Source of the DNA: Micromonospora sp. HM5-17 | Lineage (GTDB): Bacteria; Actinomycetota; Actinomycetes; Mycobacteriales; Micromonosporaceae | DNA: 64,000 bases | Assembly: GCF_003762835.1 (NCBI RefSeq) | Contig: NZ_RJWA01000011.1 | Location: forward strand, 1-64,000 | Reading direction: 5' to 3' | Shown: in pieces, positions 7,455 to 25,404 of the stretch | How positions within the stretch are numbered: the stretch's first letter is position 1 | Layout of the letters: the number at the start of each line of letters is the position of its first letter | Position numbers and translations under genes: made by a program | The notes under the pieces: generated by a model | Database searches by the model: none | What the model saw: only the letters and a program-made list of their open reading frames with translations | Told to the model about the DNA's origin: nothing

Positions 7455-7688
7455 CCACAGGCGATGACCCGGCCATCACCGGTGAGCCTCCGGAAGAAAG
7501 GGCCCCGCCCGGCGTGGCCCGAGTAGAACCGGACGGGACCGGCCCGTCACAGCCGGCTAATGAGCGGGTGGTCGGCTCCCGACCACCAAGCGGGGTGGTA
7601 CCGCGGGTCTGCGGTGCGTCGGTGGGCGTACCCGGGCTCGTCCTCGCAGATCACAGGCAGTGCGCTGCACCGAGGAGAGCGACCCGCG
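7455..7688 (+). promoter_or_regulatory. T-box riboswitch leader of ileS (actinobacterial translational type)
   Basis: The T-box core GGGTGGTACCGCGG is at 7593-7606 and nearly matches the family consensus for the tRNA acceptor-end binding bulge. A short hairpin at 7469-7482 (CCGG, loop CCATCA, CCGG) presents an ATC isoleucine codon at 7475-7477, a good candidate specifier. This is the short Stem I layout described for actinobacterial ileS leaders. There is no terminator. Instead TCCTCG (7641-7646) is complementary to CGAGGA (7671-7676), which contains the Shine-Dalgarno sequence of ileS. Uncharged tRNA-Ile is therefore expected to free the ribosome-binding site. Leader limits are approximate. 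Confidence 0.9.
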
Positions 7689-10600
7689 ATGGCGTACCCG
7701 AAGAACGCCCCCGCCGGCACGGGTGTGCCGGCCAGTCCGGACCTGCCGGCGATCGAGCGTCGTGTGCTCGACGGATGGGCGGCGGACAAGACCTTCGAGG
7801 CGAGCGTCGAGTCCCGGGACGCGGGACCGAACGGGGCCAACGAGTACGTCTTCTACGACGGCCCGCCGTTCGCCAACGGCCTGCCGCACTACGGCCACCT
7901 GCTGACCGGCTACGCCAAGGACGTGATCCCGCGCTACCAGACGATGCGGGGCCGCCGCGTCGAGCGGCGGTTCGGCTGGGACTGCCACGGCCTGCCGGCC
8001 GAGGTGGAGGCGGAGAAGCAGCTCGGCATCACCACCAAGGCGGAGATCCTCGACCTCGGGGTGGCCCGGTTCAACGAGGCCTGCCGCACCTCCGTGCTCG
8101 CCTACACCAACGAGTGGGAGCGGTACGTCACGCGTCAGGCTCGCTGGGTCGACTTCGGCAACGACTACAAGACGCTGGACCTGAGCTACATGGAAAGCGT
8201 CATGTGGGCGTTCAAGCAGCTCTACGACAAGGGGCTGATCTACGAGGGGTTCAACGTACTGGCGTACTGCTGGCGCTGCGAGACACCGCTGTCGAACACC
8301 GAGACCCGGATGGACGACGTCTACCGGGACCGGCACGACCCCACGGTGACCGTCTGGTTCAGCCTCACCCCGGACGAGAACGCCCCCGAGCCGGTGCGCG
8401 GGCCGGTCCGGGTGGGGGTCTGGACCACCACACCGTGGACCCTGCCGTCGAACCTGGCACTCGCCGTCGGGCCGGAGATCGAGTACGCGGTCCTGGAGCG
8501 GGACGGCGAGCGGTACGTGATCGGGGCGGCGCGGCTCGGCGCGTACGCCACGGAGCTGGAGGGCTTCACCCGGGTCGGCACGGTCACCGGTCGGGACCTG
8601 GTCGGCCGCCGCTACACGCCGCTGTACGACTTCCTCGTGGAGCGGGCCGGGCCGAACGCGTACCAGGTGCTCGGCGCCGACTTCGTGACCACCGAGGACG
8701 GGACCGGGGTGGTGCACCTGGCGCCCGCGTTCGGTGAGGACGACCAGAAGGCCTGCAACGCGGCGGGCATCCCCACCATCGTCACCGTCGACGACCACAC
8801 CCGGTTCACCGCGCTGGTGCCGCCGTACCAGGGGGAGCAGGTCTTCGACGTCAACCGGTCGGTGATCCGGGAGCTGAAGGAGCGTGGCGTGGTGCTCCGG
8901 CAGGACACCTACACCCACGCGTACCCGCACTGCTGGCGCTGCGACACCCCGCTGGTCTACAAGGCGGTCTCCTCCTGGTTTGTCGCGGTGACGAAGATCA
9001 AAGACCGGATGGTCGAGCTGAACCAGCAGATCAACTGGACCCCGGGGCACGTCAGGGACGGCTCCTTCGGAAAGTGGCTGGCGAATGCCCGGGACTGGTC
9101 GATCAGCCGGAACCGGTTCTGGGGGTCGCCGATCCCGGTCTGGAAGTCGGACGACCCGAACTACCCCCGGGTCGACGTCTACGGCTCGCTCGAGGAGCTG
9201 GAGCGTGACTTCGGGGTACGGGTCACCGACCTACACCGGCCCGGCATCGACGAGCTGACCCGGCCGAACCCGGACGACCCGACCGGCCGGTCCATGATGC
9301 GGCGGGTGCCGGAGGTGCTGGACTGCTGGTTCGAGTCCGGCTCGATGCCGTTCGCCCAGGTGCACTACCCGTTCGAGAACCGCGAGTGGTTCGAGCACCA
9401 CTACCCGGGCGACTTCATCGTCGAGTACCAGCCGCAGGTGCGGGGCTGGTTCTACACCATGCACGTGTTGGCGACCGCGCTCTTCGACCGGCCGGCGTTC
9501 CGCAACGCCGTGGTGCACGGCATCGTGCTCGGCTCCGACGGGCGCAAGATGTCCAAGAGCCTGCGCAACTACCCGGACGTCTACGAGATGTTCGACACCT
9601 ACGGCTCGGACGCGATGCGCTGGACGCTGATGGCGTCGCCGGTGCTGCGCGGCGGGGACGTGGTGGTCAGCGAGACGGCGATCCGGGACTCGGTGCGCCA
9701 GGTGCTGCTGCCGTACTGGAACGTCTGGTACTTCTTCTCGCTCTACGCGAACGCGGAGGGGTACACGGCCAAGCGGAGGACCGACGCGGGGGCGGCCGGC
9801 GGTGCCGGCGACCTGCTGGACCGGTACGTCCTGGCCAAGACCCGGGAGCTGATCGAGGCGGTCACGGCCGAGCTCGACGCGTACGACATCTCCGGTGCCT
9901 GCGCCTCGGTCCGGTCGTTCCTGGACGCGCTGACCAACTGGTACGTCCGGCGGTCCCGGGATCGCTTCTGGGCCGGTGACCGGGACGCCTTCGACACCCT
10001 CTACACCGTGCTGGAGACGGTGAGCCGGGTGCTCGCCCCGCTGGCCCCGCTCACCGCCGAGGAGGTGTGGCGCGGGCTGACCGGGGAGCGCTCGGTCCAC
10101 CTGACCGACTGGCCGGACGCGACCGAGTTCCCGGCCGACCACGAGCTGGTGGCGGCGATGGACGCCGCGCGCGGCGTGGTCTCGGCGGCGCTGTCGCTGC
10201 GCAAGGCGAAGGGGCTCCGGGTCCGGCTGCCGCTGTCGTCGCTGACCGTGGCGACCCCGGCCGCGGCGACCCTGCGGCCCTTCGCCGACCTCGTGGCGGA
10301 CGAGGTGAACGTGCGGTCGGTCGAGTTCAGCACCGAGCTGAGCAGCTACTGCGCGCAGGTGTTGACCGTGGTGCCCCGGGTGCTCGGCCCCCGGGTCGGC
10401 AAGCAGGTGCAGGCCGTGATCAAGGCGGTCAAGGCCGGGGACTGGTCGCTGGTCGACGGCGTACCGGAGGCCGCGGGGGTCCGGCTGGAGCCCGGCGAGT
10501 ACGAGCTGAAGCTGGTTCCGGCCGATCCGGAGCAGTCGGCGCCGCTGCCCGGCGGCGAGGGCGTGGTGGTGCTGGACACCACGGTCACGCCGGAGCTGGC

Positions 10601-23857: not shown

Positions 23858-24892
23858 TCAGTCAAGCAGGCCGATCGCCCGCTTCGCCCGGTACACCGTC
23901 TCCGCGGCGTTCTCCCGAGCGCGTTCCGCGCCCTCGGCGAGAACCCGCCGGACGTAGCCGGGGTCGCGGGCGAGTTCGGCGTGGCGGAGCCGGATCGGCC
24001 GGAGCAGTCCGTCGAGGGCCTCCACCACGGCGTGCTTGAGCTGGGCGTACGACCGGTAGTCGGCGGCGAGCGTGGTCGGGGCGGCTCCCACGGCGGCGGC
24101 GAGGATCTCGAGGAGATTCGCCACCCCGGGGCGGCCCCGTGGGTCGTACTCGACGCTCCGGCCCGGGTCCGTCACCGCACGCGTCACCTTGCGGCGGATC
24201 ACCTCGGGCGGGTCGAGCAGGAAGATCGTCCCCAGAGCGGTGCCGTTCGTCTTGCCCATCTTCCTGGTCGGGTCGGCGAGGTCCATGACCCGGGCGGAGA
24301 CGGTCGGGTAGACCGCCCGGGGCACCACGAAGGTCGGGCCGTAGCGGGCGTTGAAGCGCTGGGCGACGGTCCGGGTCAGCTCGAGGTGCTGGCTCTGGTC
24401 AGCCCCGACCGGCACCTCGTCGGCCTGGTGGAGCAGGATGTCGGCGGCCATCAGCACGGGGTAGCTGAGCAGGCTCAGCCGGACGTGCTCCTGGGCCGCG
24501 GACTTCTCCTTGAACTGGATCATCCGGTGTGCCTCGCCGTACCCGGCGGTGCACTCCAGCAGGTAGTGCAGTTCGGTGTGCTCCGACACCTGCGACTGCA
24601 CGTAGAACGTCGTCCGGTCGGGGTCGAGGCCGGCGGCGAGCAGTGTGGTGGCCTGCTCCAGGGTGCGCGTCCGGACCTCGTTCGGCTGGTGCGCCACGGT
24701 GAGGGCGTGCAGGTCGGCGAGGAAGACGATCGTCTCCGCGCGGTACTGGCCGGCGATGATCGGCCGGATGGCGCCCAGCAGGTTGCCGAGGTGGAGGCGG
24801 CCGGTGGGCTGGAGCCCGGTGAGCCGGCGTCCCCCGGTGGTGGGCCGGGCGGGCGGCGCGGTGGGCTCGGTGAGCGGGGCGGTCCGGGTCAT
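23858..24892 (-). CDS. trpS: Tryptophanyl-tRNA synthetase
   Basis: 344 aa from ATG 24892. HIGH motif is HLGN (residues 34-37) and the KMSKS motif is the variant KMGKT. Charges tRNA-Trp. The GTG four codons upstream (24904) is ruled out as start because it overlaps the AAGGAG ribosome-binding site itself (plus 24904-24909). The gene lies behind a leader peptide with tandem Trp codons and an attenuator hairpin, so expression should fall when charged tRNA-Trp is plentiful. Confidence 0.96.
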   Translation of the reverse strand: MTRTAPLTEPTAPPARPTTGGRRLTGLQPTGRLHLGNLLGAIRPIIAGQYRAETIVFLADLHALTVAHQPNEVRTRTLEQATTLLAAGLDPDRTTFYVQSQVSEHTELHYLLECTAGYGEAHRMIQFKEKSAAQEHVRLSLLSYPVLMAADILLHQADEVPVGADQSQHLELTRTVAQRFNARYGPTFVVPRAVYPTVSARVMDLADPTRKMGKTNGTALGTIFLLDPPEVIRRKVTRAVTDPGRSVEYDPRGRPGVANLLEILAAAVGAAPTTLAADYRSYAQLKHAVVEALDGLLRPIRLRHAELARDPGYVRRVLAEGAERARENAAETVYRAKRAIGLLD

Positions 24893-24947: not shown

Positions 24948-24976
24948 AAACGGCCGCCCCGGTGGGGCGGCCGTTT
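24948..24976 (-). terminator. Attenuator hairpin of trpS
   Basis: Perfect inverted repeat with 13-bp arms (24948-24960 and 24964-24976) and a 3-nt loop (GGT), starting with AAA and ending with TTT. It lies between the leader peptide and the trpS ribosome-binding site. Its first minus-strand arm contains GGCCGCCC (plus 24965-24972), which can pair instead with GGGCGGCC (plus 25004-25011) right after the leader peptide stop. The alternative pairing is the antiterminator. Confidence 0.85.
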
Positions 24977-25012
24977 GGCTCGTCTCGGGTACGCGGATGC
25001 GCGGGCCGCCCG

Positions 25013-25048
25013 TCAGGGCGCCCACCAGCCGTTCGTCGTCATCCGCAT
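25013..25048 (-). CDS. trpS leader peptide (tandem Trp codons)
   Basis: An 11-codon frame from ATG 25048 to TGA 25013-25015 encodes MRMTTNGWWAP, with two adjacent TGG codons at 25022-25027. GGAGG lies at plus 25051-25055 (complement CCTCC); a second ATG at 25042 has better spacing from it (8 nt). However TACCGT sits 7 nt upstream of 25048 on the minus strand, so the leader may be leaderless, starting at 25048. Stalling at the Trp codons when tryptophan is scarce would leave GGGCGGCC free to pair with the first terminator arm and so prevent attenuation of trpS. Confidence 0.85.
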   Translation of the reverse strand: MRMTTNGWWAP

Positions 25049-25055
25049 GTCCTCC

Positions 25056-25061
25056 ACGGTA
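25056..25061 (-). promoter_or_regulatory. -10 element of the trp leader-trpS transcript
   Basis: TACCGT on the minus strand (plus ACGGTA), 7 nt before ATG 25048. Fits a leaderless leader peptide; no clear -35. Confidence 0.5.
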
Positions 25062-25185
25062 ACAGAGCGCCGGCGCGGACCACAGGGACGGCGATGTCGG
25101 TGACCGGTGCGGTCGACGGTGGCGGCGATGTCGGTGCGCCCGCCGGGTCACCGGCCCGGGCCGGATGTGGTCGCTGGTCGGACGA

Positions 25186-25404
25186 TCAGTCGAGGTCGAA
25201 CTCGCCGTCCCGGGCTCCGGCGACGAAGGCGTCCCACTCGGCCTGGGTGAAGACCAGAACCGGTCCGTCAGGGTCGGCGGAGTTGCGCATGCCGATGAGG
25301 TTGTCGACGAAGGCGATCTCGACCGCGCCCTCCGAGTCGTCGCCCTCGGCACGCTGCCACACGGCTCGCGAGAGATCGAAGTCGCCCTTGGGATGCTGCG
25401 CCAT
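25186..25404 (-). CDS. DUF397 domain protein
   Basis: 72 aa from ATG 25404 with GGAGG upstream. The pattern WQRAEGDDSEGAVEIAFV, IGMRNSADPDGPVLVFT, EWDAFVAGARDGEFDL is the DUF397 signature. In actinomycetes these small acidic proteins are usually encoded beside an XRE-type regulator and may act as its antagonist or antitoxin-like partner; no such partner is next to this one. It is divergent from pepN, with overlapping promoter space of about 70 bp. Confidence 0.9.
   Translation of the reverse strand: MAQHPKGDFDLSRAVWQRAEGDDSEGAVEIAFVDNLIGMRNSADPDGPVLVFTQAEWDAFVAGARDGEFDLD

Follow-up and report, generated by a model that had tools for sequence, protein, structure and literature searches.

A ribosome-mediated transcription attenuator with a leaderless 5′ end very probably controls an auxiliary trpS gene on the minus strand of the window (the whole stretch of 64,000 nucleotides of Micromonospora sp. 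HM5-17 DNA that was analyzed). An earlier note on this DNA had proposed classical Trp attenuation of trpS, and the proposal is supported by the conserved control codons, the geometry of the stop codon and strand 2, the alternative pairings, and published precedent in Streptomyces. When the minus-strand sequence was checked, all of the attenuator parts were located exactly where that note had placed them. The features of the leader and the gene are as follows.

25056–25064, minus strand: extended −10, TGT-TACCGT, from the sequence; TACCGT occupies 25061–25056, 7 nt 5′ of the leader ATG
25013–25048, minus strand: leader peptide frame MRMTTNGWWAP*, starting with the ATG at 25048 and probably translated leaderless, from the sequence; homologous frames lie 5′ of 74 orthologous trpS genes
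25040–25048, minus strand: 5′ strand of helix P0, ATGCGGATG, start codon included; minimum-free-energy pairing with 24991–24999 and covariation in relatives
25022–25027, minus strand: tandem Trp control codons TGG TGG; two Trp codons in 58/74 leaders, one in 16/74
25016–25023, minus strand: strand 1, GGGCGCCC, partner of strand 2; from folding and the pairings in relatives
25004–25011, minus strand: strand 2, GGGCGGCC, partner of strand 1 or strand 3; from pairing analyses in relatives
24991–24999, minus strand: 3′ strand of helix P0, CATCCGCGT; covariation with the 5′ strand
24964–24976, minus strand: strand 3, the terminator 5′ arm, AAACGGCCGCCCC, containing GGCCGCCC, which is complementary to strand 2; from folding and the pairings in relatives
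24948–24960, minus strand: strand 4, the terminator 3′ arm, GGGGCGGCCGTTT, with TTT in the stem and no further U-run; from folding and a terminator scan
24909–24904, minus strand: trpS Shine-Dalgarno sequence AAGGAG, from the sequence; the trpS start ATG is at 24892
23858–24892, minus strand: auxiliary trpS, tryptophanyl-tRNA synthetase, 344 amino acids with the stop included; TIGR00233, 309 bits (cutoff, 177)

Conserved leaders upstream of an auxiliary trpS

Sequence comparison places the gene in the window as an auxiliary trpS. Another trpS elsewhere in the genome is 47% identical to it, and in a survey of 151 family genomes, about 73 places carried a close orthologue of the gene in the window, with a more distant copy (about 44 to 50% identity) common throughout the same listing. 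In a tree of 38 TrpS proteins, which sampled 19 attenuated and 19 other copies and included the second leader set described below (taken as Streptomyces from its leader peptides), a branch with support of 100/100 separates the 19 attenuator-associated copies from the 19 others. Because the window's gene lies within the auxiliary, attenuated clade, apart from the 47% identical copy, it is assigned as the second, auxiliary trpS of this genome. In Streptomyces, one trait of the auxiliary type is an indolmycin-resistant, indolmycin-inducible synthetase.

Leaders of the same design were found upstream of orthologous trpS genes in 74 distinct versions in the Micromonosporaceae and relatives. They are 11 to 14 codons long and start with ATG (51 leaders) or GTG (23 leaders), and the second residue is Arg in 67 of them. 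One or two Trp codons are present among the last four residues in all 74 leaders, those with a single Trp (16/74) being mostly of the form WR. The peptide C terminus reads W-x-y-z-stop throughout, with RWxx as the single exception, and the core of strand 2 begins 1 to 4 nt past the stop codon. A second set of 20 leaders follows the same plan, and most of its peptides (MTTRTCTQLWWAA) resemble S. lividans TrpL2 (MMTRTCTQLWRAA); judging from these peptides, the set is probably made up mainly of Streptomyces leaders. With the same order of parts preceding orthologues in 74 distinct leaders, the design is, on this comparative evidence, not a product of chance.

Some loci depart from the common plan. 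At a few more trpS loci, outside the 74, the leader is changed, missing, or truncated. The leader upstream of trpS in locus L039 (VRMSPIFLGWWRS...) has no stop codon before strand 2 and continues to CCGCATAG; it may reflect decay of the attenuator, a variant form, or an error in the sequence. The stop codon lies past strand 2 in L109, L110, L114, L116, and L119 (e.g., MSHRSLGLWRAALRRTR*), where strand 2 would be translated through and the mechanism would have to differ in detail. The Dactylosporangium loci L009, L013 to L017, and L019 have leaders in which Arg comes after a single Trp codon (SWRA...), and in some of them the P0 start region is GTGCTGC. In the window, a small gene on the same strand (25186–25402, minus; MAQHPKGDFDLSRAVW...) is located 140 nt upstream of the leader, and a close relative of this gene also precedes trpS in L044; we take its product to resemble DUF397 proteins.

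Probable leaderless start of the leader peptide

Leaderless translation of the leader peptide, raised as a possibility in the earlier note, is well supported by the comparison of relatives. A TANNNT hexamer ends 6 to 8 nt 5′ of the leader start in 61/74 leaders; at the other upstream offsets, the mean is about 0.14 of 74 each. The count at the −10 place carries a mild bias because the TANNNT-bearing frame was preferred at loci with several candidate frames. TGNTANNNT is present in 40/74 leaders, and several of those lacking the spaced TANNNT have ACAAT-like hexamers at the −10 place. A Shine-Dalgarno-like 4-mer occurs at the proper distance in 3/74 leaders, and the S. lividans trpL2 transcript is reported to be leaderless by RNA-seq (PMC8079986). 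The fixed spacing from the −10 to the start codon and the S. lividans report argue for a leaderless mRNA, as does the poor conservation of any Shine-Dalgarno sequence, and transcription is predicted to start at the leader ATG or one to two bases from it.

The same attenuator could instead be carried on a transcript that starts farther upstream, with the GGAGG at 25055–25051 serving as the Shine-Dalgarno sequence of the second in-frame ATG (25042), 8 nt away, and MTTNGWWAP as the peptide. Siblings L027 and L029 also have GGAGG ahead of an internal ATG. However, this arrangement is found in only 3/74 leaders, many leaders lack the second ATG altogether, the +1 predicted from the extended −10 would fall downstream of the GGAGG, and the corresponding S. 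lividans transcript is reported to be leaderless, as cited above. A Shine-Dalgarno-led start at the second ATG was rejected for its lack of conservation among the 74 leaders, and we regard an upstream transcript as very unlikely.

Mutually exclusive pairings

The earlier note held that an antiterminator half could pair with the first terminator arm. Strand 2, which starts one base 3′ of the leader stop codon, is indeed complementary to GGCCGCCC in that arm, and the complementarity is kept in relatives. The pairings 1:2, 2:3, and 3:4 are mutually exclusive and accompany a leader frame with Trp control codons, as is typical of trp-type attenuators. The leader folds with a z-score of −4.26 (0/200 shuffles equally stable), and RNAalifold predicted both 1:2 and 3:4 from a MAFFT alignment.

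Covariance of 2:3 and 3:4 in relatives had been suggested as a check on the attenuator, and it was obtained for 3:4 but not for 2:3. The 1:2 and 3:4 pairings show changes on both sides in 8 cells, compared with 1.0 in shuffles. The 2:3 strands are complementary in 95.9% of cells of the family alignment, and no 2:3 covariation was detected inside the family because the strand pair is nearly invariant. In locus L020 and the second set, strands 1 to 4 change together (e.g., GCCGCC / CGGCGGCCG / CGGCCGCCG / CGGCGGCCG).

With a ribosome modeled at either Trp codon, nascent RNA extending up to strand 3 folds into 2:3 (−21.2 kcal/mol); with a ribosome modeled at the stop codon, 2:3 is unable to form; and in the model with no ribosome, P0 and 1:2 form (−37.3). 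Since 3:4 (−27.5 kcal/mol) is more stable than 2:3 (−18.3 kcal/mol) and outcompetes it at equilibrium as soon as strand 4 is present, antitermination would be a kinetic outcome that needs a co-transcriptional trap, a property shared with other attenuators.

A probable additional helix enclosing 1:2

The leaders contain a further element that the earlier note had missed, the predicted helix P0, which is conserved and covarying. The first nine bases of the leader frame, ATGCGGATG, pair with CATCCGCGT (24999–24991), just past strand 2. The noncoding 3′ strand tracks the coding 5′ strand among relatives, as in the pairs ATGCGGATG/CATCCGCGT, GTGCGAATG/CATTCGCGT, and TGCGCGTGTC/GACACGCGCG, and GTGCGAGGAC/GTCCTTGCGT and TCGCGCATGTG/CACATGCGCGA are further co-changing strand pairs. 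Across 91 leaders, the mean own-pair score was 19.1; it fell to 16.0 when partners were swapped and to 12.9 when the 3′ regions were shuffled, and 0/5000 permutations in the swap test scored as high (1/5000 for the second set alone), in statistics that ignore the relatedness of the leaders. When 46 leaders were aligned with MAFFT, 80.7% of P0 cells were paired, versus 76.2% after shuffling and at most 58.9% when slid, and both sides have changed in 27 cells, versus 13.9 in shuffles that likewise disregard relatedness. RNAalifold did not predict P0 from this alignment, probably because the 3′ strand shifts in register and is poorly aligned by sequence, and the per-sequence and swap tests were therefore used.

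P0 could also be a by-product of conserved leader codons in a G+C-rich sequence, without selection as a helix. Its absence from the RNAalifold prediction, made on a sequence-only alignment, and the neglect of relatedness in the permutation tests would fit such an origin, but the 3′ strand is noncoding and nevertheless follows the codon changes, own pairing exceeds swapped pairing in 5000/5000 permutations, and both the excess of two-sided changes and the lower values of the slid versions point to selection on the helix. A by-product is, on balance, unlikely.

As a selected helix, P0 probably extends 1:2, acting as an anti-antiterminator. In the second set, P0 mostly begins 8 nt into the leader frame and leaves the start codon outside, so the role shared by all leaders is more likely the extension of 1:2 (as an anti-antiterminator or pause hairpin) than the hiding of the start codon. 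In the Micromonosporaceae, P0 might conceivably act as a one-shot loading gate that buries the leaderless start codon after about 60 to 70 nt have been transcribed, a role that is possible, though doubtful. If it holds, only an immediately loading ribosome would decide the outcome, untranslated transcripts would be committed to termination, and a single RNA element would combine leaderless translation with the timing of attenuation.

Probable transcriptional control and the T-box alternative

The 13-bp terminator hairpin reported in the earlier note is present before trpS (24976–24948, G+C rich, with a 3-nt loop), but no U-run follows it. A scan for consensus terminators found none at the hairpin, where a U-run is absent and the TTT lies within the stem, and a consensus promoter scan of the region found nothing; such misses are expected for actinobacterial promoters and for hairpins without a U-run. 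The S. lividans trpL2 hairpin likewise lacks a U-run (PMC8079986), and efficient intrinsic termination at the hairpin is assumed here. The missing U-run would also suit a hairpin that governs trpS translation, or that is only an RNA stability element. However, the trpS Shine-Dalgarno sequence lies outside the hairpin, about 40 nt beyond it, which favors transcriptional control, and the 5′ arm of the hairpin is built for competition with strand 2 in all relatives. Control at the level of translation or RNA stability is thus quite unlikely.

Synthetase genes are often controlled by T-boxes, and one is found in the window ahead of ileS.

7728–10259: ileS, in the window
7455–7648, plus strand: T-box-like leader before ileS, a full-length match to the Rfam T-box; GGGTGGTACCGCG

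The match scores 25.6 bits, far short of the gathering score (E value of 0.0016 when 901 bases were searched), and the motif TGGTACCGCG is located ahead of ileS. With a score below the gathering threshold, this T-box would be liable to be missed by annotation pipelines. The full-length match and the motif bear out the contrast drawn earlier between a T-box for ileS and attenuation for trpS. Across the window, no Rfam family scored as high as its gathering threshold, and no T-box match was found before trpS; a genome-wide search for T-boxes at an E value of 0.001 found none, missing the weak ileS T-box as well. In addition, the frame and strands 1 to 4 use up the whole trpS leader. A T-box before trpS was rejected because neither the window nor the genome-wide search produced a match, and the chance that a T-box or another known riboregulator governs trpS is close to nil.

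Proposed mechanism

In the attenuation mechanism that we infer, start site, stalling, termination, and physiological trigger included, a ribosome would load at the leaderless 5′ end, with the +1 at the leader ATG or no more than two bases from it. If no ribosome has loaded, or if it has gone, P0 and 1:2 would form, leaving strand 3 free for the 3:4 terminator. When charged tRNA-Trp is plentiful, the ribosome would reach the stop codon and cover strand 2, and the terminator would form. When charged tRNA-Trp is scarce, the ribosome would stall at the Trp codons, covering strand 1 as well as most of the 5′ strand of P0; strand 2 could then capture strand 3 during the synthesis of strand 4, and trpS would be transcribed. 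A spare tryptophanyl-tRNA synthetase would most likely be switched on in this way when charged tRNA-Trp is short.

This reading extends a known Streptomyces switch across the Micromonosporaceae and relatives, and the leader points to an auxiliary synthetase of a type that, in Streptomyces, is linked to resistance against inhibitors of tryptophanyl-tRNA synthetase. It would also provide about 90 natural leaders in which leaderless initiation is tied to attenuation, with the covarying P0 as a direct handle on the timing of the leaderless 70S start relative to RNA polymerase, a matter that, to our knowledge, has been little studied in attenuators.

Comparison with known attenuators

This type of attenuator is already described in Streptomyces, and the additions made here are its conservation and the P0 helix. 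A trpS2 attenuator was predicted in S. avermitilis (Seliverstov 2005, PMC1262725), and, judging from the title cited in PMC4787780, attenuation of an auxiliary trpS in Streptomyces is the subject of Vecchione and Sello (2010, J. Bacteriol. 192:3565). Helix P0 may be new. The Micromonospora element resembles the Streptomyces one in its auxiliary trpS and in a short leader peptide that carries one or more Trp codons close to its end, and it shares with S. lividans trpL2-trpS (PMC8079986) a transcript that is probably leaderless in Micromonospora and a hairpin without a U-run. The Micromonospora leader has two Trp codons, whereas that of S. lividans has one, and the start codon lies inside P0 in Micromonospora but 8 nt before P0 in the second set.

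Like the trp operon attenuators of E. coli, Corynebacterium, and Streptomyces, the trpS element combines tandem Trp codons, strands 1 to 4, and the coupling of translation to termination. Unlike them, it governs a synthetase gene rather than biosynthesis, its leader has no Shine-Dalgarno sequence, strand 1 consists of the final leader codons, and P0 forms an extra basal helix. Before trpE of this genome, no leader with two Trp codons was found except for a stretch in an apparent upstream coding sequence. In the enteric his operon attenuator, an early pairing includes the translation start region of the leader and takes the form of a separate hairpin around a Shine-Dalgarno sequence. The trpS leader is similar in that its start region takes part in an early pairing, and it differs in that P0 encloses 1:2 and the mRNA is apparently leaderless.
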